A stretch of DNA of 45,516 nt from Chromera velia (Eukaryota; Sar; Chromeraceae), in NCBI GenBank assembly GCA_018398765.1, contig JAHBMJ010001901.1:62698-108213 (forward strand). The letters are read 5' to 3'. This document shows, piece after piece, positions 2,233-38,862 of the stretch (its first letter is position 1; each line of letters starts with the position of its first letter). The position numbers and the translations under genes were made by a program. Below the pieces are notes generated by a model. That model did no database searches and had not been told where the DNA came from. It saw only the letters and a program-made list of their open reading frames with translations.

Positions 2233-3593
2233 TAGGCCTGGGAAAAGGTTCATTGAGAAAAGGTTCAAATCTAAAAAAGGGAACCTGTTGAACCTGTTTT
2301 GAACCTGTTGAACCTGTTTTGAACCTGTTTTGGAGGCCAGACGCGCGGCCACTGGCACAAGGCCGGCCAGGCCCGCGCGCCGCCCACGGCCCATATAGGT
2401 GAAATAAGGAGCCGGAGCCGTGCGCACAGCAACTGCCCCCAGCCGGTTCAATCTGTTGTATCGGACAGACGCATGTCAGCATATGTCAGCATCATATGTC
2501 AGCATAAAAACTCATGCTGACGGTTGCAGAAGTGAAGAAGTACACGTGACTTACCAAGTTTTCCACTTGCAAGGCCCCGCATCAAAACGGACAGTCTCTA
2601 CTGAAGGAATGAGGAAGTATAGAGTTTGTTTGACAACAGTTTGCACAACAGTGTAATTGACAATATCTTTTTGGAGGGGCTGCTTCAGACTCGTGCCGGT
2701 AGGGATCAATCAAAAGGGGTCTGCAAGGCTTGCTCCGTTCCGATCATCCGTGAAGGAAGCAGGAAAACCGGAACAGGAAATTTGTTTACACCTTTTCTAA
2801 GAGGGGGGTTCCAATGATAACGGTACGATGGTTAGAAATTTTATATATGGGGACTGAGTACAACACCGGGCAGGCTCCGAAGTGGACGAGACGGGGGTTT
2901 GAACAAGAATGTTACTGTTTATACGAAGTACAAAGCAGGTGACACAATATTACCAATTTATATGATCGGGTGCACTGATGAGTATTCGAAAACAGAGTTT
3001 CAATCCGATTTTGTGTGGCAAAAGGTTAGAACGAATGTAAACCCAGATGTTTGGGTGCCACCTGCGGTAGCTGGGAGCGGTGGAGGCCATGGGGAGGAGC
3101 AGGGGGGGGGGTAACAGGCCAGGCCGGGAGCAGCAGGTCAAAGAGGCGGCGGTGCACGGAGAGGGAGGGGAGGAGCAGGGGCCGCAGGGCAACCGGTGAG
3201 CAGATGAAAGAAAGAAAGAAACGCTGTGATGGTCTTATGTTGAGTAAATTGTCATGATTGATACGATCATATAAATTTAATGTTGGTATTTTCCAATTTT
3301 TTCAGGCTTTTTTAATTACTAATTTTCGACTATAGACAGTGAATAACTTGAGACTAGCACCTAATGTGAGCGTAAATATTGATTTAAACTATTTAAAAAC
3401 ACTACTAAGGCATAGATTCTATAATAAAACGTTCTAAAAATGCATTAAAGCCTAATTTAAAAACATAAGATAATATAAAAAAATGAGGTTTCTATTAATT
3501 AAAAGTGAACCTGTTTTTGAACCTGTTTTTGAACCTGATTCAGGTTCATTACTTCGAAGTGAACCTTGAACCTTGAACCTTTTCCTAGCACTA
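2233..3593. mobile_element. Non-autonomous hAT-like DNA transposon (MITE-like)
   Basis: The ends form imperfect 19-bp terminal inverted repeats: TAGGCCTGGGAAAAGGTTC at 2233-2251, and its inverted partner at 3575-3593, matching at 16 of 19 positions. Just inside both ends lie clusters of the subterminal motif GAACCTG (2281-2330 and 3508-3535) and AGGTTCA in inverse. TAGG-type termini with subterminal motif clusters are typical of hAT elements. The 8-mer GAGTCAAG abuts the left end, and CAGTCAAG (7 of 8) lies 3 bp beyond the right end, a possible imperfect target-site duplication. There is no transposase ORF. The inside mixes GC-rich (2335-2430, 3050-3200) and AT-rich DNA. A short direct repeat ATGTCAGCAT lies at 2470-2510. 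Confidence 0.55.
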
Positions 3594-4404: not shown

Positions 4405-6662
4405 TCAGCTTCGCAGTGCCTGCTCCACATGGTCCGTCCTGCAACACTCTACCGGCACTGGTAGCGTCGTCGAATTTGTTTCCTTTCTGTGGGTCAGCAG
4501 TGAGGACAGGGACTGGCTGGGTGGACTTCCCGGAATGCGCTGAGAAGCTGCCCGTGTCTTCTGCGACAATGCACCTGTCAGGAATCCCTCGAATCTCACT
4601 TGCGTGACGTTCGGTCTTTTCTGGATGGATAGAGTTACATTCTGGTGCCGACCAGAGCGGTGAGGAAACGCCAATCTTCTGGTCTGCTTCACCTTTCGAA
4701 TGGACACACACAGCATTTCTCTGGCAGTGTGCTTTTTGTTCTGAATTACTTCCCAGACCAGCAATGCGCTCTGTAGAAACTGAGACCTCGACAGGCATGT
4801 CGCAATTTCCAGAATCTTCTTGAGGGAATCTGGCAGAAGAATGTGAAGATACTTCTCGGCCCGTGTTTCTTTCATATCCTTTCTCGCGAAGTGCCCCTCC
4901 AGATCTTTCCACGTCTATGTCTACCAACGAGAAGCCCTCTCTTCTTCTGCCTGTGCAACAAAAAGACATTAAGGGAGCCGTGCCGTTCCCGGCAGCAGCG
5001 GCTGTGACTACAGAAGAAGGAGAGGACGAAGAACACGACGGGAGCGGAGAAGAAGACGCTGGATGCTGGAGGCGCACTGCAGCCGGAGACAGCCAGAAGT
5101 TCACCGCGACAGCTGCCTGCATCCATCGACAGCATTGCGACCACAGGTACACGACGTCAAACACGCATAGATACATAGCACGTACTCACGCGCGAGACAG
5201 ATGACACGAGGAAATCACGTAAGAAGGGAGGACGAAGAGACGATTTGTCAATTCCTGAGCAGCCGCATGATGCCCTAATGTGGTACCATCCCACCGAAGT
5301 CGAATGAATCAACCAAAGACCAAGACCACACCCACACACAGTAAACCAAACCAACCTGAGAAGTGAAGACCTCGTGCCACCACCCTGCCGGGATGAACAG
5401 ACAGGAGCCCGCAGAAACTCTCACGGAGATCCGCCGAGACAGCGCCCTGTGGAATCTGAAGAGAAATTGATGCAAGGACAGAGACAAAAGGTCGGTGCAA
5501 TTCGTTCTGTAGTGTTCGCTCTTTGAAGAGGAGGATAAGTGTACAAGAGCACCGACAAAAAAGAACTGAGAGGCTTTTTTCCCCCTGTCATTTTCTGCTT
5601 TCTGCCTTGCCTGACCACACGCGGCGCACACATGCACACGACCTACATGATTGCGGACGAAAGGCTGACAACTTCCGTCTCAGTGACTCACTCACTCACT
5701 CATCCCCATTCTGACTGACCCCGGAAAGCGGCGTTGCCGGGAGGGATCCCTCTCAAATCGCCGTCTCCCCTCAACGCTTGCAGTGATCGGGAGCTGCAGC
5801 CTCATCGGCGTCCGCCCCCCACTCTGAGACTCACTCACACGCTCCCTGTCGTCTCCAGACCGACGCTCTTCTTCCCCTTCCGCCTCTTGTGTCTTGGGCC
5901 TCTTTCCGGAAGTACATGTTTCAGAGGAAACCTCCCCGAGAGCTCTCTTTTGCTCTCTGTAATTGTGACTGCAGAGGCTTTCAGAGGTTTTCGCGTCTTC
6001 ACCCTCGGAGTCACAGCTAGAGCCAGAATCCTCTCTTCGTTCTTTTTCTAGAAGGGAGGGCACCAGGTCGATCAGCGTGTCCAGACTGAATCATGCAGAG
6101 TGCAGCACGCAGAGAGAAGCAACTGGAAGGATGGCAAAGCAACCCCGCTGTTTGGATGGGGGGAAGGAAATGAAAGTTCAGCATATCGTCTGTCCAGCAG
6201 GGGGATAGGGGTTCATGGAAAGTGCAATCAAGAAGGCGAGGGATGCATGAGAAGGAGAGACAAGGATGGAAGAAAGAGATACAGAAATAGAAAAAACGAA
6301 GCCGGCCCTTTCCCTACGGCTCCCATCTGCTCCAAGTCTCCCTTCCTCCACTGCGTCCAAGACGAAAAGGCTACCAAAATCAACAACATTACCTGCTGAC
6401 CACGGCAGAAAACTAATCAAGAGGAAAAGAATGCCGCTCCCATTCCAGACCGCTTGCAAGAATGCATAGTCACATTCATCCGCTCAAACGATCGAAAGCG
6501 GTGGAGCAGACGCGCAAAGACACACCGCTGCGAGGAAAAGGACAGAGAGAGCAGTCCTCCCAGTTCCCATCCATTATTTTTGTAAGTCCATTACCCCCCT
6601 GATCAATAGCTTTTCTTTTTTATTCCTGACTTCGTTCTATCTGTCATCTTACTGACCATCCA

Positions 6663-15700: not shown

Positions 15701-17349
15701 GTCAGTGTTCTTTCCTTCTGTTTCCTTTTTCTCTACGCTCCTTTCTTCTTTCTTTTCTGCGAGAGAGAGTCTGTCGCATTCCGGCTGGTTCAGCTGTCCG
15801 GTGGTCTTTTCTTTTCTCCACTAGAGAAAGTTGAAAGAACAAGAGAATAGAAAAACAGACGCAGAGAGAGTAGAGCGGAAGGGACGGAGGAACATTTCAG
15901 GCAGGAAGCCGACAGACCGAAGAGTGTGCAGAAAAACAGAGAGAGCGATTCTAGACCTGCAGTTGTCGGCACAAGGTCGGGGGCAGGAAGGAAGAGAGGA
16001 AAAGGATAAAGCTCTGAAAGATCCTTTGCTTATGCGTTTGTGAGACTGTGGGGGAGAGGTCTGGGCGGAAAGAGACTGGTAAAGTGCTTGTTTTGCTTTG
16101 CTTTGGGGTATCATGTTGTTTCTTCTTTGTTTGATGCTTCTGTGCAAGCTTTTAATTTGGCTTCGTACTCTCTCTTAACCCTTGCTTGTCTTGTCCACGC
16201 AGAGTCGTACGTGCAACTGTACAGGAGACAGGACGTCAAACCGGATGGGTCTTTGGACACAGAAATGAGACGTCAAAGTGAGTCAGTGAGTTGACTGCAT
16301 TTTTGTCGTAGAGATCGATGGCCATCGGGTCGTTGCCATGTATTTCATGGAGGGTGCTGAGGATGAAAGCAGACGGCACCCTTACGGGGGCACGAGACAT
16401 CTGAGTGTGTCTCGTTGTCCTCGTGTGTTGGTGTGGCTGTGCACTCGTTCGTTGATTTGCCTCTTCTTCTTCTTCTTCTTCTTCATTCTTCTTCTTCTTC
16501 ATTCTTCTTCTTCTTCATTCTTCTTCTTCTTCATTCTTCTTCTTCTTCTTCATTCTTCTTCTTCTTCTTCATTCTTCTTCTTCTTCTTCATTCTTCTTCT
16601 TCTTCATTTATCTTCTTCTTCATTCTTCTTCTTCTTCATTCTTCTTCTTCGTCATTCTTCTTCTTCATTCTTCTTCTTCTTCTTCATTCTTCTTCTTCTT
16701 CGTTCTTCTTCTTCTTCTTCATTCTTCTTCTTCTTCATTCTTCTTCTTCTTCATTCTTCTTCTTCTTCGTTCTTCTTCTTCTTCTTCTTCTTCATTCTTC
16801 TTCTTCATTTTTCTTCTTCTTCATTCTTCTTCATTCTTCTTCTTCTTCTTCTTCATTCTTCTTCTTCTTCATTCTTCTTCTTCTTCTTCCTTCTTCTTCT
16901 TCTTCATTCTTCTTCTTCTTCTTCTTCATTCTTCTTCATTCTTCTTCATTCTTCTTCATTCTTCTTCATTCTTCATCATTCTTCTTCATTCTTCTTCATT
17001 CTTCTTCATTCTTCTTCATTCTTCTTCTTCTTCTTCTTCTTCTTCTTCTTCTTCTTCTTCATCGTCTTCTGCTTCTTCTTCGTGCCTCGTTGAGCCCTTC
17101 TCGGGAGCTTCTGAGCCGGCTTTGTCGCTCCGGTACACGTGATCGACAGATTTTGGCGGCATGCGTTCGGCGATGAACTTGAGTGAATAGATCTGTCTCC
17201 CTGATTCTTCGCTCTTGTTGATTCTCCCCCCTCCTCTCGTCTGGTCTGCTTTGATCTTTTCAGGAATCGCGGAGCTGAAGGCGGCAGCAGCGCCTCCAGA
17301 GGGGGGGGACGCGACAGACGATATCGACATGTTTGCTGATGGAGAGTGA
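9362..17349 (+). CDS. USP39: U4/U6.U5 tri-snRNP-associated protein USP39/Sad1 (inactive ubiquitin-protease fold)
   Basis: Seventeen exons: 9362-9647, 9821-9900, 10199-10255, 10633-10729, 10984-11051, 11415-11465, 11931-12029, 12261-12375, 12970-13023, 13442-13487, 13837-13906, 14302-14415, 14786-14873, 15208-15326, 15628-15700, 16203-16277, 17264-17349. The product is 525 residues (human USP39 has about 565) and every phase fits. Order: a basic/acidic disordered N-terminus (1-50), then a UBP-type zinc finger (C56, C75, C86/C87, C90, His cluster 100-119), then the USP fold. The catalytic-cysteine box reads GLNNLGKTDFFN, with Asp185 in place of Cys as in known USP39 proteins, so it should be a non-enzymatic tri-snRNP assembly factor in the nucleus. 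Other family blocks are NPKNFKGIVSPHEFLQ, NNFFVEKNPTIV and YDLVANICHEGK. Intron 11 has a GC donor. Exons 9-10 cover a poorly conserved loop and are slightly less sure. The 7-n gap is in intron 1. Confidence 0.95.
11467..11536. repeat. (GT)n/(GAGT)n microsatellite in USP39 intron 6
   Basis: GTGAGT donor runs straight into GT and GAGT repeats, so the 5' splice site of intron 6 is itself part of the microsatellite. Confidence 0.9.
12181..12239. repeat. (TC)n(TG)n microsatellite in USP39 intron 7
   Basis: A TC run followed by a TG run directly upstream of the acceptor of exon 8 (12261); it forms an extended polypyrimidine tract. Confidence 0.9.
12655..12882. repeat. (TTTC)n low-complexity array in USP39 intron 8
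   Basis: Degenerate TTTC/TTCC repeats on the sense strand of the gene. The open frames across it (Phe/Ser/Leu or Lys/Glu/Arg) are products of the repeat, not genes. Confidence 0.9.
16462..17082. repeat. (TTC)n / TTCATTC array in the last intron of USP39
   Basis: About 620 bp of TTC triplets interrupted by ATTC, with TTC on the sense strand, inside intron 16 (16278-17263). Long TTC/GAA arrays can form triplex DNA. The Ser/Phe/Leu frames across it are not genes. Confidence 0.95.
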
Positions 17350-18560
17350 TAGACAGTCCGACGGAACCCATTTTCAAACTGTGGGAGAACTGCATCCACA
17401 ATTCATGAGCAAGTGTTTGGCTTTGTGGTCGCAAAGCACAGTAACGCTGTTTGCTTAGGAGACCATAATAGTAATGTTTGCTGGGCGTTTGAAAAAAATG
17501 TGTATAGTGGCTTTATAAAAGTTGCGTTACAATTTTTTCTTTTAAAAAGTTGTGAAACTATTTTAAGTTACGTTACTAATGTCTGCGACCTGCGCTAGCA
17601 CCTAGGTTAGTACACAGAAAATGTTGAAATCGACTTAGAATTTGACTCTGATTTTATAAAAAAATTTACTTGTGTTTTCATTTATATACATATATGTATA
17701 TGGCACATGATGATAATATGTATCATGTATGAATTACTCTCAAAATTATTCTAAGCATCATAATATCTATAGCTACTAATCATCATGCGACGCGTGTACA
17801 TAGGCCTTTATAACATATTGCTACACGTACAGGAGAATCTAGAGGAGAATATACTGACCTCCGAGTTTCTATTTCTTGATCAATCAGCCAGGCGCTAGGC
17901 CAGGGAGGGATTAAACCCGGGATTCAAATTCATTCAACCTTTCAATCTTTTATGCAAGATCGATCTATAGAGATCGACACTTGTTCGACCTACCTCCTAC
18001 TTCTCTTTGGGGTTCCTGGCTGTCCTCGGCTGCGATCGTATGTTCCATCATGCACCTATCATCCATCCATCCATTCATGTAACGACATGCAGTCGATCGT
18101 CCATGCATGCTGCGAATCATGCAACCACATCATTGCAGTCTGATACATGCAGAGTGAATTCCAACCTGCAAATCGATCGCTGCATCGAACTGTGATTCGA
18201 ACAGTTAATTCATGCAGGAAAACAAAAGCAGCAGGGCACATCATTTTGCGATAGAACTGAAAGCCATGCACATACAGACTATAAACGCAAAGGGAAGACA
18301 GTGAAACGTGTGGAGTGCAATGCGCTCCCCCCCACCATGGATGCACATTCTGACCTCACCAAACGTTTTCTTCTCCCCCCACCACACACCCCTTTCACAC
18401 TCGAGAGGCGTTTGTCAGATCAATCAACCCACCCTTCCACCTTCATTCTAATAGTATTTGCACTCACAGTAGGTTGACTTTCACTGCGGCATCACATCCA
18501 TTCATTTCGACAGTCGACACAATTTGTTTCGCCAAATCAATTGGGCTGCATGAGATACAA
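17350..18560. other. Intergenic region between convergent USP39 and ankyrin genes
   Basis: The part near 17360-17800 is AT-rich, with ATATACATATATGTATAT at about 17684. The part at 18050-18230 is dense in short palindromes (CATGCATG, CGATCG, ATCGAT) and in CATC repeats. No gene is visible. Both neighbouring genes end here, so the 3' processing signals of both should lie within. Confidence 0.5.
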
Positions 18561-21088: not shown

Positions 21089-22445
21089 GAGAGAGAAAGA
21101 GAGGGGGACATGCACTGTCAAGCATCTGTCAAGCAGGCGGCAAAATTTTGTCAATCTTTTTTTGTGTAGTTTTCAGAGAGACGCGCGCGTCACGCGATAG
21201 TTACACATGAGCAAAAGAGAAAGAAGAAGAGAGAACCAAGAAGAAAGAGGCAGCTTCAAGCTTCCAACCACTGCTTCAGACTGTCAGCTCACGAAGGTAA
21301 TTAAGACAAAAATTTTAAGGAAGGTCAGCTCTAGAGTGATGATTATGATGCGTGCCCCCTGTTTGAGCGGAGGTTGCACGGTCCAATTAAGGGTTACACA
21401 AATGAACCTGAGGTCCGTTATGAGGAAGCAAATCTAAGAGCCCCTCAAACCACACGTACGAAGCGCAGGGAGCTGGCAAGTCGCGATTTAACTAGATTTG
21501 ACTTCTGATTGACGCGATACAATTAAATCGGTAAACTCTCGATCATCAATCGGTAAAGGTAGTTACCAGCTCAATTCTTGATACCCAACAGATTGAGTTG
21601 CATGCCTGAGTATCTCCTTCTTCGTGAATGCACATACATGATAAAGTCTTTAAATCATGCTGATAAGACCTTTTGCAAGGTTGAAATAGCTGTACAGAAC
21701 CCTGTATAGGAAGCGTAAAGACATATACACATTGCGGCATGATTGTGCATAAAGACCTTTGAGCAGCTCTGTATACAGTGACTCAGAAACAGATCAAACA
21801 GATCTACCATACTATAGCTACCATATCTCTCTGTCACTACAAGTTTAGAGAAACAAGACTTAAAAAGCTTTTACTGTGACTTGCTTAGATGCTCTAGCTA
21901 ACCGTCATATAATAGTCGGGATACTGCCCAGTAGCACATTATATTAATTGTTTGTGGCTAAAAAGTCCTAGAGAAAGTCCGTCACTATAGCTCTCTCATT
22001 CATCGTATACTATCGGATACTAAATATTGACAATTATATTGTTCTTTAAAATTCTTCTTGAAATCCACTTTTTATGGTTCAACATTGGTTTGTTGAGACT
22101 TTGTTACTTTGCTCACTTGTAGAATTATTTATGGTCAACTTAAGATAGAATAGGAGAGGATTAATACTAGTTTGGGTTGCTCCCCGGCTACCTGACAGTT
22201 CTATAACAATACCCTGCGGTCCACTGCCGGGCCTTACTACTAGTAGTAGTAACTTGCACCTTAGCTTTTTAGTAAAACAGTTTACGATTGATCATAACTT
22301 TTATTCCCTTTTGGGCCATATCTGTTACTAAAATTCCTAGTAAAACTTTTATACCATTGTTATATACGTACTAGGTTGTATAACGGAGTATACGATTGTT
22401 TGACAATTGTTGCCACTTATTGAAGAACAGAATGGACTGATCGGA
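20733..22445. other. Intergenic region upstream of the ankyrin gene
   Basis: Holds the promoter side of the ankyrin gene (20733-21200) with a (GA)n microsatellite at about 21050-21085, then AT-rich DNA to 22445 that includes the 3' flank of the next gene. A CTAGTAGTAGTAGTAA stretch lies near 22236. No convincing ORF or RNA gene is visible. Confidence 0.5.
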
Positions 22446-25400
22446 TCATAAAAGAATCTGGGCAGACGAGACACCCTTTGCTGCGGTGTGCGGGCGGCTA
22501 GGAATTGATCGAGGACTCAGGCGGGCAACCGTGACAGTTCCTGGTCTGGTGGTGTGGGCTGCAGAAGCGCAGTGGGACTGTGACAAAGAGCCTGGGGGTT
22601 GTGATACTGATGGGGTCAACAGGATAGAGGGAGGATGACGCATCGCCCAACGGTTTTGGGGGAAGACAGGGAAGCCTGTTCCTACAGGAGGAGGGCTAGC
22701 GCCCGATGACCGTCTCGCGACTCTTCGTTGAATCCTTCGGCGCAGCCCTGTGACCATTTCGGGTGCGGTGACGTGGGCTCTCGGTTGCTCGGAAGCCTGA
22801 ACAGAGACCTCCACATGGCCCTTCTCAGTCGAATGGCTCTGACCAACAGTATGCTCTACAGCTGCAGTAGAAAGGGGGTTTGCACTGCGCAAAGCTGCGG
22901 CTGAGGAGTCCGTATCGGTCCCTTCATGAGTGTCAAACATCAGCCTGAGGGGGGCATCCGTCTCCTCTGTGGTGGTCGCTCCCACAAGTGGCGTGTGCAG
23001 CCTGTTGAGCATTCTCAGGCTGTCTCCTAGAGGCAGGCCCTGGTTTGTATGGCTCTGTTGGTCTCCTGGAGGAAAGTTATTGCACATTGTGATCTCCTGA
23101 GGGAAAAGCAAATTAGGAAGGGAGAGGCTCTTCACCTTCCGCCTTCTTGTGTTTGCCTGTGCACGTGCCCTCTCTTGTACCTGCTCTTCATCTGAGGAAG
23201 TCACAAAAACGCATTCTCTCCCGTCGCCCTCGGGGGAGTGAATCACCCTCCATTTAATTGAATCCAGGTGCTCGATGTCCCTGCTCCTTTCCTCTCTCCT
23301 TTTTCTCTCTCGCTTCTGTAGAAGGGTGAGGAGTGTCTGTCTCAAACGGCTGTTTCCTGTGTCCAGCATGGACTCGTCCTGTCGAGCGTAGAATCCTGGA
23401 CCCCGAATCGGCCGTTTTTTACCTAACAAACCGGCCAGGTGCTTTCGGCGTGCAGACAGCTGAGCCCTCTGTGCCCTCTGCCACGACACTTCACTCCTCA
23501 GACTTCTGCTGTGTCCACGCACTGCTGAATATGCCTGTCCCTGTAATTTCAAATCAGGGGAACGCTTTTGCCATTGAGAGGGCCAACCACCACCTCTCGT
23601 GGAAGGCCTGCTAGAAGGTGAGGCTGCTCGCAAACTGACTGCAGGACGAGTGTGTGATTTTAGTCCCGGATCTGCAGGGGCAGACGCAGCCTCTCTCTTT
23701 TTTTTCTTTTTCCCCAAGTTGAATGACAGTGACCTCTCCCCGTGACGCTCCATGCTGACGTCAAGAGGCAATCGGACTGACTGCGAGTGCCTGTGGGAAG
23801 GCTGCCGGGGGGACCGGGACGATCTGCTGGACCTCGAGCTTCTGCTTCTGCTTCGGCTCCTTTCTGTGAATGCGGGTTGACGCGATCTATGGGAAAGGGG
23901 TCGCGCTGTCGAGCCAGATTTCTCTGACCGAGCTGCAAGGGCTGCCTTGGCAGGAAGACATGATGACTCCGCATTTGGTTGAGAAATGGGCTCAGGGGAT
24001 TTTTGAGCTTGCTGCTTTGATGATGTCTCTGAAGCCTTCATCATGGACTCCCCCCCCTGAAGAGGCCCCCCCCTCGATTCAGTGCAGCTGGGTTCCATCA
24101 TGTCTGTAGAGGCTAGGGTGACAGATACGTGGGGAGGGGAATGCGGGTTCTGGGCTGGGGCGTGTCCCGTCTCTTCATCCTCCTCATCAAGGAGACGGGG
24201 GGAGACGTGATTGGAGGGAATGGGAAGGGAGTGTCGTCTTTTGATCAGGGAAGGGGGAATGCGAAGAAGTGCCCCCTCAGCTGTGCTCGCACGGAGTTGT
24301 GGAGGAGATGCAGGCCTGAAGGAACCAGCAGCTCCGGCAGGAAGACGAATGTCCAGAGGGGAGGTTTGGGGACGGAAGGGAACATTTTGTGTATGCAGCT
24401 GTGTGACTTGCTCTAGGTTTGTCTCGTTTTTGGTCTCTTCTTTCGTCTCCTCATTCTTCTCTCTCGAGTCCACAAAGCGAACTGCTCTCCCGTGATGTGC
24501 AGGAGTGAGGCAGCGTGCAGGCGTTCCAGCCACAAGTAATTCCCCCCCGTTTCTGGGAGGAGAAAGGGAAACACGCGGGGAGGATTGCGGACACGTTTGG
24601 CGATTTCTGTTTCGAAAGAAGTAGTGCCGTGACACGGAAGCAATGCGCGGTAGACGGGGTTTTCTGTGTTCCCTTCTTTTCATTCTACTCGACTCACGGC
24701 TACTCGTGCTGCTATCATCCGCCCCGCTGCTACTATCTGCACCTTGATATGTACGTGCCTGCAAGTTTTGTTTTTTGCTTCTTTGGGGGAATGTCATGGT
24801 CATGTTCTGGACGGAAATCTGCGACTGTTGCGTTGAGAGTCCATGGCTACATCTCTTTTCATCGAATCGGTCCTCAACGAAGGGAGTTTTTGGCCTAGAT
24901 CTTCTTGTGTTAGGCAGAGAGGCAGTGACAGAGGGAGCCGTCCCCGTCTTGTTGGTTCCTGTGCCCTCCCTGGGCGACTCGACAGACATCTGATCTCCGT
25001 CTCCCCCCCTGAGAGTGTCCCCTCGAGGACTCGGGAGTCGCACGGGGGTCGGGGCTCCCTTGAGGGACCTGACCATCATTCCAGAGAGATGACTTTGGCG
25101 TGAAGAGGGGCGGGAGAGAGGGACACCCCCCTCAGTCATGAGAGTACCAGGGAACAGGCCGACTCTGTGGTCAGTGGTTGCAGGGGTGAGAAGGCGGGAG
25201 CCCGGAATGGTGGGGGAAGAGACCATGGCGTCACTCTCGGCGTTGCCATAGGAGAGGGGACGCATTCTGTCTCTGCCCTTGCTGTCTGGGCGCAGTGACT
25301 TGGAAAGGGAAAGGGAAAGAGACAAAGAAGCAGAGGGAAACGCCTGACTTCTCGATGCAAGCAGGTAGTCAGACAGCAAAATGACTCTGCCATCGCTCTC

Positions 25401-28110: not shown

Positions 28111-28955
28111 GGAGACGGAACTGGTCGACGAGAGAGACCGCAAACCCCCTCCCTTGGACAGACGAGGAGGAAGAAGGTTGACTTTCTTTGTCCCGCGAGA
28201 AAAGAGGGCAGGTTGGTTACCTGAGATCTGGAACCTGCAAGGGATTCATTGAACAGCTATTCACGCAGGATTAAAACCAGTGCATGCTCACAGTCTGCAT
28301 GTGAATCAAACACATGCTTTTTTATACAGCCTTTGCAAGGTCAGACCAGAACCTGGATGACTGACCGCAGAATGCCCCCACTGCCATGTACGCTTGTCCC
28401 TCCCTCCCCTGATAGGCGGTGTGTCGTCTTTCTGGGTTGAAAGAATGTCATTTGGTGAGCGGACAATGAATCACTTCATTCATGCAACTTGGAGACGTGC
28501 ATCTGAGACGTCTGCGGACCAATCCTTCAATATGTCTGTGTGCTTGGACCCGTCTTGCTCCATTCAATATTACTGTCAGCGAGCAATCTGATCGGAAACC
28601 TGTCGAGCATGCAGAACACTGATCTCTGAAATTGTGGGGACCAATACAATACCGCAAATCTCGATCGTGGTCGATCATGCAGCCAAAAAATCCATGCATG
28701 CACGGTCTGCATATGCATGCATAGATCGTCGTCCTTTTTCGCGCGCTTTGCGCAAAAATTATAACGCGGACCCGCGCGGCAAAGGCCATGCAGCTATAGC
28801 CGCCAACGTTCTGTGACCTGCAGAAAAAAAAAACGCTCTCTAAAAATCTGCATGCAAAGATCGTTATTGCTTGGAACAGAAGACAAAGTGTTGTTTCCGC
28901 CTTCTCTTTCAAAATAGTGTTGTTTTCCTCCCGTCCCCCCCCCCCNCCCTTGCAG
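28111..28955. promoter_or_regulatory. Upstream region of the large Ser/Arg-rich gene, with TGCATGCA cluster and a gap
   Basis: Contains three TGCATGCA palindromes (28695-28702, 28714-28721, 28849-28856) and GATCG/CGATC motifs, upstream of the - strand gene that starts at 28110. A single n at 28946 sits in a poly-C run, so sequence on its two sides may not be contiguous as drawn. No gene is visible apart from the LRR exon that begins right after the gap. Confidence 0.45.
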
Positions 28956-29135
28956 CATTTAAACTTTGAGGACAATGTACTCACCGGTGCAATTGTGAAT
29001 CCAATGTTGAGACTGCTAAGCTCGCAGCAGCTGCCTACTCTCGAGACATTGAGTCTTTCTGGGAATAGAGGGATTGATGAGAGATCGAGGGAATCGCTCT
29101 TCGGAACGCTTCCAGGAGTTATACAGTTTGATTAG
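28956..29135 (+). CDS. Last exon of a leucine-rich-repeat gene, rest missing at gap
   Basis: Directly after the gap and a TTGCAG acceptor, 59 residues run to a TAG stop at 29133-29135. They contain two LRR units (LQHLNFEDN and LPTLETLSLSGN; the first three letters precede the acceptor) followed by a short capping end. The segment has the same ribonuclease-inhibitor-like style as the gene at the left edge of the window but is not the same sequence. No upstream LRR exon is visible left of the gap, so the rest was probably lost in the assembly or belongs elsewhere. It could also be a pseudogene fragment. Confidence 0.55.
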   Translation, partial: HLNFEDNVLTGAIVNPMLRLLSSQQLPTLETLSLSGNRGIDERSRESLFGTLPGVIQFD

Positions 29136-30761
29136 TATCTCATGACGTAAAATTGTGTTTTGATTGTTGGACGACCTGAGTACTTACGATGACTCGCAAC
29201 TTTAATATACCAATTGATGTGATAAATTTATGAATCGTTTCGATTTATTCTTTAATATGAAGATCTAATGGCAGACTAGTACAAAGTACATATCATTGGT
29301 CCCTTACAATACTTACAGAGTTAGAACTATAATTTTTCATCATCATACGTGATCCGAGTCGTCATGGTCCATTAGTTTATAGTAGGTGTCTCGCCGTCGA
29401 GTCACCGACTCTATTCTTAAAACCGCGTACAATGCACACGACATCATTCCTATCGTTAGTACATCCTACATATCGATCATACCGATCATTATTAGTAAAT
29501 ACTAAGTAAATTTATGGCTTTCAGTACATATATCATTTAAGGGTTACGGAATTAATTTAGTAACTGGAGGGGGGTTAGACCCCCAAAGTTATGAAAAAAA
29601 AGTAAAGTACAACTTTCTAACTCTAGTACGGAAGTACAGTAAGAATTTACTAGGAAGTAGTACAGAAACAATCAAAACACTAGTGATGAAGCTAAACATC
29701 AATGTGACATCATTGTTTTATAAGGTTAGTACAAGCATTAACATCACTGAGAAGTCTTAGATCACTTAGTAGTATCCCTTATTAAACATAAAATTCAAAC
29801 TTATTACAACCATTGTAATATTATGACTATTATTGTCAGCCAAAAACATAAGTGTACCAGTGTAAGCCGTTTCATATAAGGCTATCATGCACAAAACCTA
29901 GAAGCTGCACAAAACTGTACGAAACTCCATACGTATGAAATGGTGACACACTTTTCTTAGGTGGACACACACTACTTTTTTGTGCAGTTCTTCATGAAAC
30001 TCTGCCATCTCCTCTCTTTTTGCTTTTTCTAACCAACAGTGTCACAGACTTAAACTTTCTTTTCTAAATAAGTAAGACTTGGTGACTTAAAAGCCTTTCA
30101 CGTCTGAATCGGTCTGAATGAAACGTTGTTTAGGAAAGGGGTAGTGAATGATGCAATATTTTGAAACGACTGCATGGAGATGGCAAGACAGACATGCACC
30201 AGAGATGGGCCCTGTAACCGAAAAAGACCCAAGCAATTCGGGGTCATGCAGTTATGCAATGTGTGTTTGTGTAAGACTGTGGTATGCTGGTATCCTACTA
30301 TATCCTACCTAAAACCTAAGCGTTGGCTAAAGAAAAAAAAAAAAGAAAAAAAAGTAAGCGAACAAAGGACATCTTTTTTTTTCTTTCTTTTTTACTTTTT
30401 TGCCCTTAACAACACCTAATAACAGTTGTGCAACATATGTACAACACCTGTGTAACACGTGAACAACAGTTGTTTGACTCAGTAATTGACTGAAAAAGAA
30501 AAAAAAAGTAAAGGGTTAATTTAGGCATTATTTTGGGGTGATCTTTTTTTTTTTCCTTTAGCCGACGCCTAGCCTAGAACTTAAGTTTTCATATTTTTAT
30601 ATCTTCCTAATGGAAAAGTATATTTTTAGGTATAAAAACTTTAAGTTATACATTTTTTGGAATTGCTTTTACATATGAAATCATCCTAGAACAAACTGAT
30701 TTTACCTAGGATTTTACGGTTCCGAAAGTTCAGTACTAAGGGGTTGGAGGCCTCCAGTAAC
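29136..30761. other. AT-rich gene-free DNA left of the retrotransposon
   Basis: Low-GC DNA with short A and T runs (30331-30400, 30480-30560). A weak tandem of CAAC(A)/TGTGCAAC motifs lies near 30405-30475. No protein-like ORF, tRNA or rRNA is visible. Confidence 0.5.
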
Positions 30762-31184
30762 TGTTGGTATGGCTAGCGTGACGGCAGTATGACGACTATG
30801 AACTTACGTGTAAAGTCTGTGTATCACTGGTTCAGTTCCTTCTTCCACTTTTTTTCGTCTTCGAACATTGCATCACAAAACTGTCATACATCTTGCTGTC
30901 TATCTTCCAATCTCATTTATTCATATTTAATTTGCATCTTCTATATTTCATCTATCCAATACAGAAACGGAATCTGTATCGTCATTTCTGTATGACTTCT
31001 TTTCATTTATTACAATACAGTTTGTTTGTTTACTTCTGTACAACGCATTCAAGTGTTGTTTGGAAAGTGTTGCATGGTTTACGTGCGCGGCGTGCATCAA
31101 TCACTCCGGTCCTCCGGGACCGTACTTCTCGCGTCCTCTCAGCCCAGAGCGTCACCCCGGCCCGCTCGCCTCTGAGGCCTAACA
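30762..31184 (-). repeat. 3' LTR (left copy)
   Basis: 423 bp, TGTTGG...CCTAACA, aligned without indels to the copy at 37422-37844. There are 23 differences (about 5.4%), all transitions. Confidence 0.95.
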
Positions 31185-31202
31185 ACCACTCCCCCCTCCA
31201 GT
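31185..31202 (-). other. Polypurine tract of the retrotransposon
   Basis: On the - strand, the purine run GGAGGGGGGAGTGGT lies directly before the 3' LTR, the standard position of the plus-strand primer. Confidence 0.75.
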
Positions 31203-31627
31203 CTGCTCATCCCGAGCAGATCATGCAAAGGACAAAGCAGGGGCACGTTAACATGTCATGCACCACTCAAACTCCCGGGGGCTGCCCTTACCCCGACGAC
31301 TTCGTTTCTTTTCATTCACAGAGGCTCTTGGATGCGTCCATCCTTTCGCACATTCGAGCAAGAAGGGAAAGAGGGTTTGCCTCACTTAACCAATCAGAAA
31401 AGACAAAGACAGCAATCACTGTGAGACATTCATTGGACTTACCGAAAAAATTTTTCTTTCGCTCTTTCATATACACCGACCAACTCTGGTGCATCCACCT
31501 CACTCTCCTTCATCCATGCGAAAGTCCCATCATCGAACGAGACTCGATACTCCTCCTCTCCATCCTCTGAGGGTCGTCCAGCCAGAATCCGAACTGGCTG
31601 AGGCGCTTTCCGCCTTCCCCTCTCTCT

Positions 31628-33046
31628 CTACCTTTCTTCTGGATGAACCTCCAACTCATCTCCCAATCCGAGCTCGTCGAAGAGCTCATCTATTTCGGGG
31701 TCGTCCCCTATCCTGAATATGGCGGGGCGATCGCTCGAGTGGGGGACTTGCTTCTCTTCTCTCTCTCTTTTTTTATCTGCAGAGTCTTCCTCTGCCTCTT
31801 CATTATCCTCTCTCTCTCGGGACTCTATCCGTGGCGCACCTGCAGGGATCTCTTCCCCTCCCCCTTCATGTTCATTTTCATTCTTCTTTCCTTCCTCCCA
31901 CAATTGCAATCGGTCTTCACTCACAACTTCCCTCTTCTTTCCTCCAATCGGTTGAATCACAGCGACATGCGGTCGGTTGTGTGGTATACCAACCACGACA
32001 AAAGGCCCATCTGCCTTCGCACTGAAAGCAGGGAAGCCGAGCTGAGGTACAGGACGACGGAAGAGAACGCGATCTCCCACTCAAAACTTTTGAGTCATGC
32101 ACAGGGGATTTCGTCTCTCTCTTGCCTGTCGCTCCCTCTCTGCTCGGTTGACCGCTCTGTCAATCTTCTCCACTCGCTTTTGCCGAATGAATCCATAGTA
32201 CTCATCATAGCAGACAGGAGGTGCTCTGGCTCTTTCTACGATTGGCTGAACTCTCAGCACAGACTGCGGTGTGTGCGTGAAGAGAAGCTCAAATAGAGAC
32301 AGCTCCGTTTCAGAATGGGGGGCCGTGCGGTAGGCAGCATTGAAGGGCTGAAGGTACAGATCCCAATCCCCCTTCTCATCATCTAGCTGCTTCCCTACCC
32401 CTTCTACCCAGGAACGGTTGAAGCGTTCTGGGATCCCGTTCGTCTGCGGATGGTATCTGGTGGTGGTGTGGTGTCGGGAACGCATGAGAACAAGGAGCTC
32501 CCTTACGATTTCACTGAGAAAGTTCGTGCCACGATCGGATACCAACACCTCAATGAACCCGTAGCGGCAAATGATCTCCTCGAACAGAATTTTCACCATC
32601 ATCCATCCAGGCACTTCGGGGAGGGCAAATGTCTTGGGCCATCAGGTGAGTGCACACGTCACCACGAGAACGAATCGGTTCCCTCGTTTTGTCAGCGGGA
32701 GGGGTCCCTTCACATCGATCCCAACCACCTGAAAAGGGCGGGTTGGGATAGAGAGCGTATGAGGGGTTCTGTGCGGTGCTGCTGCTCTCCTCTCTTGGCA
32801 CGGACAACACTTCTCTACCCATTCCCCGACATCTTTCTGAAGACCTGGCCATCAGAATTCTTTCAACAACCTCTCTGCCAAACGCCTGCCTGCAATGTGG
32901 CCTCCCATCGGATGGTCATAGTGCATCACCATGATAGTCTTTCTCAGGTGTGCGGGCATATACAGCTGTTCCGTCTCTCCCACATAACGGTACAGCAATC
33001 CACCCCGCAAGTCAAAGAGACTTTCCTGCGCCATCACCGTTTTCAT
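31628..33046 (-). pseudogene. Retrotransposon integrase (broken)
   Basis: One frame interrupted by in-frame stops at 32852-32854, 32642-32644 and 32081-32083 (all TGA). It shows the HHCC zinc-binding region (HYDHPMGGH ... CCPC), then the DDE catalytic core with GIDVKGP (first Asp), SDRGTNF (second Asp) and PERFNRSW (Glu), and a GDRVLFRRP-type C-terminal domain. A Glu/Asp/Lys-rich tail follows to 31628. Integrase would insert the cDNA copy into chromosomes. The catalytic residues remain but the frame does not. No chromodomain is evident. Confidence 0.9.
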
Positions 33047-34998
33047 TCAATTCCGTTCTGTGGGCAAAGTGCCCATCTTCAGATACTCATACACATCTCG
33101 CACAGCAGGGTCAGAGGGAACAGAGGAACGGACCTTTTCAAGAAAGGGGAGAGCCACTTGCATGGGGAGGGCATTTCCTGTGGCCCCAGCAATCGCTGTC
33201 TCAAAGCCCGGCCTCTCCGCGCTGCCCCCATCAACCGGACGGGAGCAGTGCCGACAGAACGGAGCCTCTGTGTCGATTGAGTGTTCAGCCGGCATAGGCA
33301 TCCTCGACACCGCATCGGCATCCGTGTGGCTCTTTCCCTCTTTGTAGAGATATTGCAGCCCATACTCCTACAGCTCTAATGCCCATTTCTCTATCTGTTT
33401 ATTGGCAAATTTATTCTTCCCCATAGCCAGATTCGGCTTGTGATCTGCTAGGTGATCTGTCTGAATCACGCGGAGAAAGACGGAGCTGCTAAGCAAATAA
33501 TGCCTCCACTGTCTGCAATAAAACAACCCAGCTAACGCCTCCTTCTCTGGCATTCCATAATTCAACTCAGTACCCTGCAGCCTTTTGCTCGCATACGCAA
33601 CCACCCACTCTCTCCCGTCTTTGATTTGCACAAGCATTCCTCCAATCGACATATCACATGCGTCGGGCTTCACAATGAAGGGAGTATGCATGTTGGGAAA
33701 GCACAGAACGGGGGGCTCAGTGAGACGACGGCACAGCTTTTGGAAGGCTGCATCGGCTTCTGCTGTCCAGACAAAGGGGCGTAGCTGTCCCTTCTTGTCA
33801 AAAGGCCGGAGAAGCTCATTGAGAGGGTGAGCTATCCGTGCAAACCCAGAGATAAAAGAGCGGTAATAATTGTACAGGAAGAGAAACGTGCGCAGACGTG
33901 CACGGTCAGTTGGGGTCGGCCAATTCTTGACCTTCTCGGTGTTCTTCTTGCTTAGATGCACACCCCGAGCAGAGACGGTGTGCCCAAGATACTCAACCTC
34001 CACCTTTCCAATTTGTGCCTTCTCCAACCATAACTTGAGACCTGCAACTCAGACGAGAAGGAAAACCTCCCTCAAGTCCTGCAGATGCTGCTGATGCCCT
34101 CGAGAGAAGACAATCATGTCGTCAACGTAGATGAGCGCTATGTCTCTCGGGAGGGCTGCAAGGACCATCGACATTGCCCGCTGAAAGATCGCAGGGGCAT
34201 TCACAAGACCGAACGGCATTCTAACGAACTCAAAGAGTCCGAAGGGGGTGATGAATGCGGTCTTCTCTGCATTATCTGGGTCCAGAAGGATCTGATGATA
34301 GCCGGATGTGTAATCCAAGGCGGAAAACACAGAGGAACTGGCCAAACGGTCGAGGGTCTCTTGAATGCGAGGAAGGGGGAAAAGGTCCCGCTTGGTGACT
34401 TCATTCAAACGTCTGAAGTCAAGGTAAAAGCGGATGGACCCATCAGGCTTCTTCACAAGGACAACAGGTGCTGTCCACGGTGACTGTGAAGGCTTAATGA
34501 TTCCCCCTTCCTGCATTGCATCAAGCTCCTTTTTGACTTCGTCTCTGCGGTGATAGGGCACGCGGTCCTGACTCCATCGGACCGGTGTGTCTGTGTTTGT
34601 TGGAATTTTTGCGTAGTAAGGCTTCCCTTGAAGCCTCAACGTTCCTATATCGAATCTCTCTCCACTCCAAATGTCCGAAAATTCTTCTAACAACTCCAAA
34701 TACCGCGGCTTCCACTCCTCTGGCACGGTACTCAAATCAACAGGGGGCAGGTCAGTTTGCTTTCTCTCTCCCTTTACGCCCTCTTTGGACGTTGACTTTC
34801 CCCCTAGGTCAAGAGGGACGGATGCACGGGCACCTCCCACCTGAGCAGAGGGCCAAAGACAGGGAGGAGACGAAGGAAAAGGGACAGGCCTGGTCTGACT
34901 GGGAGACGCCGAGACGGCGTTGACTGCGGCGATGTGCATCGAAGGCTCAGCATGAGTCAAAGTCACTTTCGGCCCCACCATCAATTTTAAACGGGAGA
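33047..34998 (-). pseudogene. Retrotransposon reverse transcriptase and RNase H (broken)
   Basis: RT motifs run in order: [14 protein letters not shown], the fingers/palm segment [21 protein letters not shown] and the catalytic YVDD. A TGA stop at 34049-34051 follows the RT core and a TAG at 33368-33370 ends the RNase H region. The connection/RNase H part has GHTVSARGV, FLYNYYRSFISGFA, KPDACDMSIGGML and QTDHLADHK. The region runs on to a TGA at 33047-33049. All segments stay in one frame between the stops, so damage here is by point mutation. The protein would copy element RNA into DNA in virus-like particles. Confidence 0.93.
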
Positions 34999-35326
34999 CG
35001 TATATAATTCCTCTAACAACTCCAAATACCACGGCTTCCACTCCTCTGGCACAGTACTCAAATTGACAGGAGGCAGGTCAGTTTGCTCTCTCTCTCCCTT
35101 TACGCCCTCTTTGGACGTTGACTTTCCCCCTAGGTCAGGAGGGACGGATGCACGGGCACCTCCCACCTGAGTAGAAGGCCGAGGACAGGGAGGAGACGAA
35201 GGGAAAGGGATAGGCCTGGTCTGACTGGGAGACGCCAAGACGGCATTGACTGCGGCGATGTGCGTTGAGGGCTCGGCATGAGTCAAAGTCACTTTCGGCC
35301 CCACCGTCAATTTTGAACGGGAGACG
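34679..35326 (-). repeat. Tandem duplication inside pol (34679-35000 and 35005-35326)
   Basis: Two 322-bp copies, 326 bp apart, cover the linker between protease and reverse transcriptase. The offset is not a multiple of three, so the protease frame runs into a stop at 34987 and the RT frame restarts within the repeat. The copies differ at 22 positions, all transitions, with no indels. Confidence 0.93.
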
Positions 35327-36117
35327 TTCGTGACCTCGATCACAGCTACCCCTGCACGGACAGTTGCGATCTGTGCGGGGACTGCTAGACCCGGAAGAGA
35401 ACGGGGGAAACCCTTTTGAATGAGGACATCATCTCGATCAAATGCATCAATCCGCACCTGCAGGAGACTGCAATACCATGCAGGAACCCTTATTCTCTTT
35501 AGAGCACACACCTTTATCGGCTTAACCCCGTCATCATACCATACACCGAACTCTGGCAGGTCTCCCACCTGCAACCTGTCCTTTTCAAATGCATACCTCA
35601 CCTCCGGGTGCCACCTCAAGAAATCTATGCCCAATACAATGTCATACCCCAAACCCTCAGCCACCAACACCGGGTGTTCAAACGTTTTCCCGGGATCTGA
35701 GGGATGTGCAATTTCAGATATTGTCTCCCCAACACACGGCACTGAATTATTGCCCAAAGCAACCAACCCCACACTGGGGGATTTCATCTCCACATCGGCA
35801 GCAGCAAGGTACCCCACATTAACGAAAGAAACTTGGGAACCTGAATCAAGCAATGCAGATGCAGGCTTTCCAAAAAGCAAAACACTCACCCACGGACGTG
35901 GTTTCACCTCAACAGACGCAACCTGTGCCTTGACAGCAGGGCAACGCTTCTCCTCCCTGCGAGAATGCTCGACAGACATGCACATAGGGTCCTCCTCTCT
36001 TGCACACACGGCGGGAATGAGAGGAGGCAGGTCTCTATAGACCGCATGATGGGAGGGCGGGCCTGCCTCTAAGCCCGACCTCCCCCCCCGTTTCCCGGCT
36101 TCGGAGGAAGAGGGCAC
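34987..36117 (-). pseudogene. Retrotransposon aspartic protease and linker (broken)
   Basis: Open frame of 376 codons with the retropepsin active site LLDSGSQ and, further on, the flap/hydrophobic segment YDIVLGIDFLRWHPE. It ends at a stop created by the out-of-frame 326-bp duplication. The frame is different from that of gag, so the element probably used a programmed frameshift or has an indel near the G run at 36083-36090. The protease would mature the Gag-Pol polyprotein. Confidence 0.88.
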
Positions 36118-37255
36118 TGCTTGACATGGTGGGCCTTAGACCCACAGTTCCGGCAGCTGATGTAGTTTGGATGCCCGAGAGTATTGCTCCCTGGGAGGAG
36201 GGTTTCAGAGAAGAACCCGGTTGAGGGATGGGACGGATAGAAAGGAAAGTTTGAGGGCGCTGGTTGCCCTCGGCCTCCTCCAAATCCTCCTCTGCCCCCC
36301 CCTGCCCAGCCCCCTCAACCCCAATTGAACCCACCCCGAAAGTTGCTGCCTGCCTGCCCATACTGAGTCGGGGCGGCCTGTGCGACTGGGTGAGTGCAGC
36401 AATTTGGACCTCCAGTTTGTCGAATCGGTCACTCTTCGGCTGCTCCTGCTTCTGCTTGCCCTTCAAATTTCGATTTGCGTCTGCAGCTGTGACTTGTGCC
36501 TTACCTTTCTGCTGTGAGTGCAGAAAACAAACTCGAGCGACGAGCTGGTGGTAGTCGTTGTACACAGTGGGCTCCCTGGTCAAATCCAAGGAGAGAGACG
36601 GGTACAGGGTGCCCAAGAAGGGCATGACTCAGGTTTGGTGCGGATATCCAGGTTAGGAGATTCGCATGAGTTTCTCGAATGCCTCTTTATGCGTTTTGAA
36701 GTCATCACCAGGGGTCAGTTTGAGCATAGAAAGCTCGTAGACTGCCTGGTTCTTTTCGGTCTCTGTTGGGGTCCACCGGAGCAAGAAGGCATCCTTGAGT
36801 TGTTGGAAGGTTAAGCGTTTCTTGCTCTTCTGGGCTAATCACTCCCGTGTGATAGGCTTGATGAGATGCTTCTCCACAAGCATCCACCACTCTGCGTCTG
36901 TCAGGTTTGCCTTCGAAGCCTTTGCCTCAAACATTTCCGACCACTCGACCGGACAGTCTCTGTCTGGGTCGAAATCCTTGACAATCGTGCGAATGTCAAG
37001 GTTCTTGAGTTTTGTGAGGTCAACATCGTTTGGGTTTTACTGCTGCTGTTGTTGCTGGGCTTGCTGCTGGGCTTGTTGCTGGGCTTGTTGCTGGCTTTGC
37101 TGCTGGGCTTGTTGCTGGGCTTGCTGCTGTGCCTGTTGTGCCTGCTGCTGCACCATCTGAAGGTCTGCCTGTGCCTGTGCCAGATCTGTCTGCGACTGTG
37201 CAAGCTGTTGCTGCAAGTTGGCAATTTGCTGCTACAGCTGCTGGTCGTCTGCCAT
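36035..37255 (-). pseudogene. Retrotransposon gag (broken)
   Basis: Starts at ATG 37255. Five stops lie in one frame: 37232-37234, 37037-37039, 36839-36841, 36653-36655 and 36629-36631. The N-terminal part is a Gln/Ala-rich coiled-coil-like run (QQQAQ repeats, about 37040-37200). A retrotransposon Gag core follows (DPDRDCPVEWSEMFEAKA, LRWTPTE-like). A classic zinc knuckle C-x2-C-x4-H-x4-C lies at 36114-36155 but in another frame than the upstream gag body, so an indel or frameshift separates them. Gag would form the particle and bind RNA. Confidence 0.85.
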
Positions 37256-37401
37256 CTCCTCTTCGCCTCCCTCGAAGAGCTCCTGGAACCACTGATTGAC
37301 TGCCTGGTTGGCTGGCAAGGAAGGGTTGAGGTAAGCCCTTCCCGATCGTGTGATTCCGGAGATGGCTACAACAAAAGAGAAACAGAGGCCGTGAAAAAGA
37401 A

Positions 37402-37417
37402 CGTACTCTGCTTACCA
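37402..37417 (-). other. Primer-binding site of the retrotransposon
   Basis: On the - strand, four bases inside the 5' LTR, the sequence TGGTAAGCAGAGTACG begins with the TGG complementary to a tRNA CCA end and resembles initiator-Met PBS sequences (TGGTA.CAGAG). The tRNA identity is an inference. Confidence 0.6.
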
Positions 37418-37421
37418 CTTT

Positions 37422-37844
37422 TGTTGGTATGGCTAGCGTGACGGCAACATGACGACTATGAACTTATGTGTAAAGTCTGTGCATCACTGGTTCGGTTCCT
37501 TCTTCCACTTTTTTTCGTCTTCGGACATTGTATCACAAGACTGTCATACATCTTGCTGTCTATCTTCCAATCTCATTTATTTGCATTTAATTTGCATCTT
37601 CTGTATTTCATCTGTCCAATACAGAAACGGAATCTGTATCGTCATTTCTGTATAATTTCTTTTCATTTATTGCAATACAGTTTGTTTGTTTACTTCCGTG
37701 CAACGCATTCAAGTATTGTTTGGAAAGTGTTGCATGGCTTACGTACGCGGCGTGCATCAATCACTCCGGTCCTCCGGGACCGCACTTCTCGCGTCCCCTC
37801 AGCCCAGAGCGTCACCCCGGCCCGCTCGCCTCTGAGGCCTAACA
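37422..37844 (-). repeat. 5' LTR (right copy)
   Basis: 423 bp, the partner of 30762-31184. It is adjacent to the primer-binding site, which fixes it as the 5' LTR for the - strand element. It should contain the promoter and polyadenylation site; neither can be pinned by eye. Confidence 0.95.
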
Positions 37845-38862
37845 ATAACTGGTACAAAGTTACGACTTTTCCAGTAACCAATTTTTGAGCCGAACCCGAG
37901 GGTGGGGTCTGATACCTCAGCTTAAGCTGGGGAACGCCCCGCCCTGCTAGCTCTGGCGACAGATAGACATAGCGGGAAGGCCCTAGGGCGGAACATATCA
38001 ATCAATCAATCAAACCCCCAACAGTAACTCTTAAATGATATATGTAGCTTTCAGTATCTTGGTCAGTATAAGCAAAAGGAAGGGATTCCCCTTCCCATCT
38101 TTTCTCGGCCCTTGAAGTAGTAGTAAGTAGTAGCCTCCAAAACTCTGTGCTAGGCTCTCTAATAGAATCTCTATTAAAATTTGAAAATAATAATTAATAA
38201 TGTAATCTCATAACATCGATCATATACTTTAAAAAGATCGACTCTAAAAAGAGAGATTGACAGACTCTGTCTATAAAGATACTCCTTTTTTTCTATTCTT
38301 TTTTTCCCCCTAGTTTTCACTAAAAGTTTTTCTGTTCCACTACGCCTATGAAGTGAGTTGTTCAACTGTGGTTGCATAACAGCTTCATGAACGCTCCACT
38401 CGCGGCTCGAGAGTTTATCTTGCAAAGTGGGTGACCACATTGGCTACGTGATCTTACGTGATCTAGTGCCTGATCGCCTGGACGCCGTGGACAGGAGGCT
38501 GGCTATGAGGCCGGGCCTTTGCCACTGCTCAGTGTGCCGCTCTGTATGGAGTCACTGACAAGGGACTCGAAGACTCCGCCTCTCTGTTCTTTCCCAATCG
38601 AGACTTGAGCCCTTCAGGTGTGAAATTCAGAGCGAGAAGGCGAAATAGTCGAAAATTGCGGAACGACAGCAAACCAGGGAAGACAGACTGAGGGGATGAA
38701 AGGGACGACCAGGGAGAACGAGGCAGAAAGAATGCCAAAGGGCAAAGCAAAAGCAAAACGACGGCGGAAGAGAAGAGTCTGTCTGGAAGGAACCCGGGGA
38801 GGGAGGGAGGGAGGGACGGAGGGAGGGAACACAGAAGAAAGAACACATCCATCTTTCCTTCT
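37845..38862. other. Region between retrotransposon and CWC22, with a possible SINE-like tail
   Basis: 37845-38005 is GC-richer than its surroundings and ends in ATATCAATCAATCAATCAA, as SINE/LINE tails often do. 38010-38460 is AT-rich. 38500-38862 is the 3' flank of CWC22 with purine-rich DNA (GGGAGGGAGGGAGGGACGG). No gene is supported; the open frames here are reverse-strand reflections of low-complexity DNA. Confidence 0.45.

Follow-up and report, generated by a model that had tools for sequence, protein, structure and literature searches.

In plants and vertebrates, methylated transposons decay by deamination of 5-methylcytosine, and in plants and mammals CpG normally dominates as the affected context. 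Repeat-induced point mutation (RIP), in turn, targets cytosines in a CpA/TpG context and is believed to precede meiosis (PMC12543289); a review records it in fungi, mostly Ascomycota, and allows that it may also have arisen in other groups (PMC9246332). Among algae, retrotransposons of the dinoflagellate Symbiodinium carry a DNA methyltransferase (DNMT), in a paper whose main text does not use the term Chromera (PMC5890265), and a Vitrella DNMT is mentioned in PMC10538959. The genome of the alga Chromera velia has been described as 193.66 Mb in 5953 scaffolds with ~30 Mb of transposons (PMC4501334), and our literature search found no paper on cytosine methylation in this species (one broad query was only partly surveyed) and none on uracil-DNA glycosylase in Chromera. 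Here we analyze 45,516 nucleotides of C. velia DNA, hereafter the window (contig C1897, positions 62698-108213, in an assembly of 177.8 Mb and 4040 contigs), which carry a Ty3/gypsy-like long terminal repeat (LTR) retrotransposon at 30762-37844. Resident copies of this element decay mainly by C:G>T:A changes after insertion, on both strands, steadily and without clustering, with CpG and CpA hit about 2.3 times as often as CpC and CpT. We suggest, with a probability of roughly 0.6, that this comes from methylated cytosines at CpG and CpA, which deaminate in resident transposons that the host has silenced.

A first-pass annotation of the window had reported, from hand alignment, that duplicated parts of the element differ by transitions only. 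Computed alignment gave 23 transitions without a transversion or gap between the two LTRs (extending one chance base past the LTR end), and 22 transitions, again with neither transversions nor gaps, between the two copies of a duplication within pol. The sequence contexts came out exactly as first counted (CpA 14, CpG 3, CpT 4 and CpC 2 in the LTRs; CpA 5, CpG 9, CpT 6 and CpC 2 in the duplication), as did the 3 transversions in 7 changes of a 42-bp minisatellite. The probability of drawing 45 transitions out of 45 is ~1e-6 if the transition fraction is that of the sampled tandem repeats (59/80), and 6e-9 if it is that of the fixed differences between the two subfamilies described below (120/183); it rises to 0.006 with the fraction of all private changes in nine elements (794/891) and to 0.14 with that of six LTR pairs of subfamily A, among them the window's pair (113/118). 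These values indicate that the LTR family is unusual and that the window's copy is ordinary inside it; chance is rejected as the source of the transition-only pattern. The 45 differences are not all independent new mutations, since at least 12 of the 22 differing sites in the pol duplication are also variable among the other aligned elements. Present in the window's element and missing from the eight others aligned with it, this duplication may join two already diverged source copies through template switching, rather than reflect a later tandem duplication; its offset of 326 bp shifts the frame of pol.

The assembly holds at least 41 matches to the LTR, namely 40 whole or partial copies and a 44-bp piece that was set aside, a lower bound because 40 of 50 candidates were scored. 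By identity to the window's LTR they form two main subfamilies, A (mostly 87-95%) and B (79-82%), with two copies in between (L022 and L023) that were excluded from the pool used for polarization. Eleven LTR pairs were compared: nine standard pairs, one from each of the nine elements that were aligned in full, and two non-standard pairs that were also counted, on contigs C344 (inverted neighbors, 106 bp apart) and C3872 (partial, ~2 kb apart). Transitions and transversions number 23:0, 14:0, 18:1, 17:2, 21:1, 20:1 (C3872) and 16:1 (C344) in the pairs of subfamily A, and 7:1, 6:1, 9:2 and 13:2 in those of subfamily B. Of the nine standard pairs, that of the window has diverged most, yet barely so (5.42% vs 5.39%), and it is not out of line. 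The same ratio in other copies had been named in advance as an outcome that would count against the observation. As all 11 pairs are transition-rich, it does deprive the window's copy of any special status, while it strengthens the claim for the family as a whole.

The excess is also directional. When old and new states were inferred from the other copies of the family, 113 of 125 polarized changes in the seven subfamily-A pairs were C:G>T:A, with six T:A>C:G and six transversions, and 31 of 38 in the four subfamily-B pairs were C:G>T:A, with one T:A>C:G and six transversions; 10 of 135 differences in the A pairs and 3 of 41 in the B pairs were ambiguous. In the window's own pair, 22 changes are C:G>T:A and one is the reverse, 16 of the 23 lying in LTR 1 and seven in LTR 2. 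Over the nine aligned elements, the 891 private changes, that is, those found in one copy, comprise 739 C:G>T:A, 55 T:A>C:G and 97 transversions; per site, C>T is 11.8 times as frequent as T>C. Misjudged polarity at often-hit sites would mainly create false T>C changes, so the bias is probably, if anything, understated. Both strands are affected equally (367 C>T vs 372 G>A), without strand runs (z between -1.6 and 1.4 in the nine elements). This equality bears on cytidine-deaminase editing, one of the three causes proposed at first. Although an APOBEC-like enzyme acting on retroviral-type cDNA before integration would also produce C/G-directed changes in a retroelement, it should leave G>A on one strand, and the changes observed here differ between the two LTRs of single insertions and accumulate in a clock-like manner. 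Taken alone, the subfamily-B LTR pairs do show a skew (23 G>A, 8 C>T), but it is absent from the private changes of the four B elements (115, 115). Editing of this kind is thus unsupported, and we give it hardly any credence.

The two LTRs of an element are identical at insertion, and the timing of the changes can be read against differences that arose earlier. Differences fixed between subfamilies A and B amount to 120 transitions and 63 transversions over the whole element, and to 20 and 17, respectively, in the non-coding LTR (near-fixed at 85%). Because these differences arose during replication, the 20:17 ratio implies that replicating lineages lacked the bias that resident copies show, with the caveat that reverse-transcriptase errors also shape replicating lineages. 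By codon position 1, 2 and 3, the fixed differences number 12, 4 and 25, favoring third positions as under selection, and the private changes 140, 97 and 125, without a third-position excess. The ratio of C>T to other changes is homogeneous over the nine copies (chi-square 9.7, 8 degrees of freedom, p = 0.29), the four copies of subfamily B having 55, 55, 60 and 60 C>T changes, and in none of the nine elements do close pairs of changes exceed random placement (p >= 0.06). We conclude that the changes accumulated slowly in resident DNA and not in bursts. Strand-symmetric, clock-like C>T after insertion is what decay of methylcytosine should leave. In a RIP-like process, by contrast, duplicated DNA would be recognized by homology and its cytosines mutated in bursts in the sexual phase; directional C:G>T:A change in repeated DNA is what such a process should give and is what the family shows, but the expected bursts, uneven copies, clusters or strand runs were not found.

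The sequence context is likewise informative. Per-site C>T rates over the nine elements are 204/4989 at CpG (0.041), 277/8056 at CpA (0.034), 129/8077 at CpC (0.016) and 129/7919 at CpT (0.016), so that CpG and CpA together exceed CpC and CpT (odds ratio 2.3, p = 7e-29), with no clear difference between CpG and CpA (p = 0.06). The order CpG, then CpA, then CpC/CpT is the same in both subfamilies. The first-pass annotation had noted that the LTRs and the duplication could not both be explained by one dinucleotide. That puzzle is largely solved, as two dinucleotides share the excess and the others are raised too. CpA is hence among the favored contexts, even with a slight lead in the LTR pairs (per site, CpA 0.055, CpG 0.052, CpT 0.028, CpC 0.021), as RIP would have it; over the nine elements, however, CpG is at least equal to CpA, contrary to the CpA preference of RIP. 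CHG sites change no faster than CHH sites (0.021 vs 0.023), and CHG methylation is rejected as a contributor.

AT-rich islands of the window, for example 3501-4250, 21751-22500 and 29251-30750, might represent the far end of this decay. Their observed-to-expected ratio of TpA is 1.0-1.25 in most 500-bp steps and 0.62-0.83 in two of them, vs 0.46 in the window outside the element, and the composite RIP index is positive in these islands. The TpA-rich kind does not include two further AT-rich steps (a tandem array at 16501-17000 and 17501-18000). The island beside the element would be the end state of the same C>T decay, and its high TpA would follow from the decay of CpA as well, since decay of CpG alone is not expected to raise TpA. 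Within the flank that holds this island, 30310-30576 is a repeat of ~260 bp resembling a miniature inverted-repeat transposable element, which is bounded by short inverted ends and occurs in many copies of 76-81% identity. Such AT- and TpA-rich fossils with positive RIP indices are also what a RIP-like process would leave behind, but the nine elements themselves have negative composite RIP indices, from -0.68 to -0.86, compared with -0.66 in the rest of the window.

Whether the bias extends beyond this family was examined in a second, unrelated dispersed repeat, in tandem arrays and in gene copies. For the second repeat there were 218 first-look candidates, of which 40 were scored, and 22 sequences of the region 2233-2702 of the window were compared. 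States found in at most two copies comprise 117 C>T, 11 T>C and 29 transversions, and strictly private ones 47, 7 and 23, in the same C>T direction as in the LTR family. Pooled over 18 tandem arrays, with each derived state counted once per column and several short arrays having no change at all, the numbers are 35 C>T, 24 T>C and 21 transversions, which differ from the LTR family at p = 9e-14; without one 108-bp array discussed below, the remaining 17 give 23, 23 and 18. A triplicated light-harvesting (LHC) gene whose copies are 95-99% identical has, in the solid core of its alignment, 5 C>T, 8 T>C and 1 transversion (polarity was taken as two copies against one and counted by eye, and ragged ends, rows 702-728 and rows without L084, were dropped by eye). 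A wider alignment of one gene pair gives 24 transitions and 10 transversions, with 8:0 and 5:1 in the remaining two pairs. Among the control stretches, N makes up most of L055 and L058 and a quarter of L060. As separate observations, two sequences ~5.1 kb apart (L057:1040-1277 and 6157-6394) differ by 10 transitions and no transversion and are perhaps a further LTR pair, and two identical 813-bp stretches around a single N (7122-7934 and 7936-8748) very likely arose during assembly, at a scaffold gap.

The LHC copies are transition-rich without direction, which weakens the argument from transitions and transversions and leaves direction as the real signal. Transition excess, which the first-pass annotation took as a signature, is real and family-wide but not diagnostic alone. 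Transitions prevail in most genomes, and with 13 transitions to 1 transversion in the LHC core it would be tempting to see in the LTRs an ordinary transition bias or a counting accident. Such an account is very improbable in our view, given that the excess is directional and recurs in 11 LTR pairs and nine elements, and that the same LTR stands at 20:17 in replicating lineages. The triplicated gene also speaks to RIP, which should hit every duplication longer than a few hundred bp without sparing genes, and a near-identical triplicated gene without a C>T excess does not fit. Having fared badly in four tests (constant ratio, absence of clusters and strand runs, CpG at least equal to CpA, and the spared gene), a RIP-like cause appears quite improbable here.

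What remains of the three causes first proposed is methylation-driven decay, which fits best, the transition-only decay itself being real. To silence the element, the host would place 5-methylcytosine at CpG and at CpA too; the methylated base would deaminate spontaneously to thymine and be poorly repaired in silent DNA, and the copies would slowly become AT- and TpA-rich. Domain matches in the host are consistent with the machinery that this requires. PF00145 has four matches on three contigs (C3982, C675 and, with two pieces, C1092), and an SRA domain lies in two or more pieces on contig C2797 (L085:1279-2500), with UHRF1, UHRF2 and the TagI endonuclease among its best matches in solved structures. 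The DNMT would be the writer of the mark and the SRA protein its reader. The search for DNMT- or RID-like methyltransferases thus returned putative DNMT genes. DNMT5 is not supported, as no SNF2 match was found on the three DNMT contigs. The host is very likely photosynthetic, judging by 58 matches to PF00504 (chlorophyll-binding) in the genome, counted exon by exon.

Several points weigh against deamination of methylcytosine. CpG is changed only ~2.5 times as often as CpC and CpT, which is weak for classical CpG methylation; CpC and CpT themselves change at rates well above that of T>C; and in the aligned LTR columns 37422-37845 alone, CpG (0.030) falls below CpT (0.034), although counts there are small. 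The window's element has no CpG depletion beyond its surroundings (observed-to-expected ratio 0.69 vs 0.71 in the rest of the window), and such depletion is rejected. In the second repeat, 23 of the 77 strictly private changes are transversions and the effect of context is weak (private changes per site: CpG 0.014, CpA 0.010, CpT 0.008, CpC 0.005). The bias is not strictly absent outside transposons either, as the 108-bp array at L056:5026-5586 leans toward C>T (12 C>T, 1 T>C, 3 transversions). In an LHC exon, one gene pair differs at 11 positions, every one a transition and seven of them at fourfold sites (7/7). The tandem and gene controls are small samples, in part of coding sequence. Finally, one or all of the putative DNMT genes may encode DNMT2, a tRNA enzyme.

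The elevation of C>T in every context raises a further explanation, in which the host lacks uracil-DNA glycosylase and deamination of plain cytosine becomes fixed as C>T, while methylation, if any, adds no more than the approximately two-fold rise at CpG and CpA. A search of the 177.8 Mb, exon by exon and in an assembly that is possibly incomplete, gave no uracil-DNA glycosylase with PF03167, TIGR00628 or a codon pattern for GQDPYHG. The same exon-by-exon approach did find HhH-GPD glycosylase (three matches) and the SRA, histone and LHC domains, so that the missing enzyme could be a loss or could be a limit of the search. From the relative deamination rates of cytosine and methylcytosine, plain cytosine would mutate nearly like methylcytosine in a cell without this enzyme, which could explain the shallow 2.3-fold effect of context. 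The array that leans toward C>T agrees with this explanation, whereas the pooled tandem repeats and the LHC copies, without a comparable excess, do not; nor does base composition, with 45-60% GC in 146 of 179 sampled 500-bp windows. These controls and the GC content suggest a bias that does not reach the whole genome, unless some protection shields genes and the DNA around them. As the pooled controls have no C>T excess of similar size, a contributing role is more plausible for lost uracil repair than a causal one, and as the main cause we consider it unlikely. It would be tempting to combine the two ideas into a slow mutational defense, in which transposons are methylated at every C before a purine, uracil repair is lost, and silent copies turn into AT- and TpA-rich fossils while genes are spared. 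Such a gradual, non-fungal counterpart of RIP is speculative, and on present sequence evidence we regard it as distinctly unlikely.

The coordinates of the features are collected in Table 1. The element at 30762-37844 is assigned to the Ty3/gypsy-like LTR retrotransposons on the basis of its LTR pair, its 5-bp target-site duplication and its order of reverse transcriptase, RNase H and an integrase-like frame. A search of plasmid proteins with part of the reverse transcriptase returned three records, distant relatives of that enzyme, and was uninformative. No Rfam match was found in the window at gathering scores.

Table 1. Features of the window, in window coordinates
Feature	Position	Strand	Remarks
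Second, unrelated dispersed repeat	2233..3130	+	first 470 bp with same C>T direction
Flank with AT-rich island (~29251-30750)	28900..30761	.	old-repeat mosaic; main matches 77-88% identical to other copies; parts TpA-rich
Left target-site duplication	30757..30761	.	GTAAC
LTR 1 (3' LTR of the element)	30762..31184	-	423 bp, TGTTGG...CCTAACA
Polypurine tract adjoining 3' LTR	31185..31202	-	purine-rich on minus strand; recognized by eye
Integrase-like reading frame	32081..32641	-	motif by eye; without Pfam match
RNase H of pol	33368..34048	-	PF17919, PF17917
Reverse transcriptase of pol	34049..35077	-	PF00078
Pol duplication, copy 1	34680..35001	-	322 bp, offset 326 bp
Pol duplication, copy 2	35006..35327	-	322 bp
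LTR 2 (5' LTR of the element)	37422..37844	-	423 bp
Right target-site duplication	37845..37849	.	ATAAC; one transition apart from left GTAAC

If methylated cytosine is indeed the source, the transposon mark of this alga covers both CpA and CpG, and mutation spectra alone suffice to read it. There is also a consequence for dating. Estimates from LTR divergence assume an ordinary mutation spectrum, and here ~83% of private changes (739/891) stem from one decay route, so that insertion ages based on LTRs could be inflated.

Compared with the systems described so far, the DNMT-bearing retrotransposons of Symbiodinium are similar in being algal retroelements for which cytosine methylation and deamination are considered (PMC5890265). 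They differ in that the DNMT is carried by the element there, whereas Pfam found none among the eight scanned reading frames of the window's element. Ascomycete RIP shares with the Chromera family the C>T change in repeats, CpA among the favored contexts and AT-rich fossils, but the changes in Chromera are clock-like and unclustered, hit CpG at least as much as CpA, and spared the one gene tested. The closest resemblance is to the decay of methylated transposons in plants and vertebrates, with which the family shares directional, strand-symmetric and gradual C>T change in resident copies and a host with DNMT and SRA domains. Methylation in Chromera would here be read from the mutation spectrum, and CpA changes nearly as fast as CpG. 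The known kind to which this locus probably belongs is methylation-driven transposon decay, and its nearly equal rates at CpA and CpG make it a variant of that kind.

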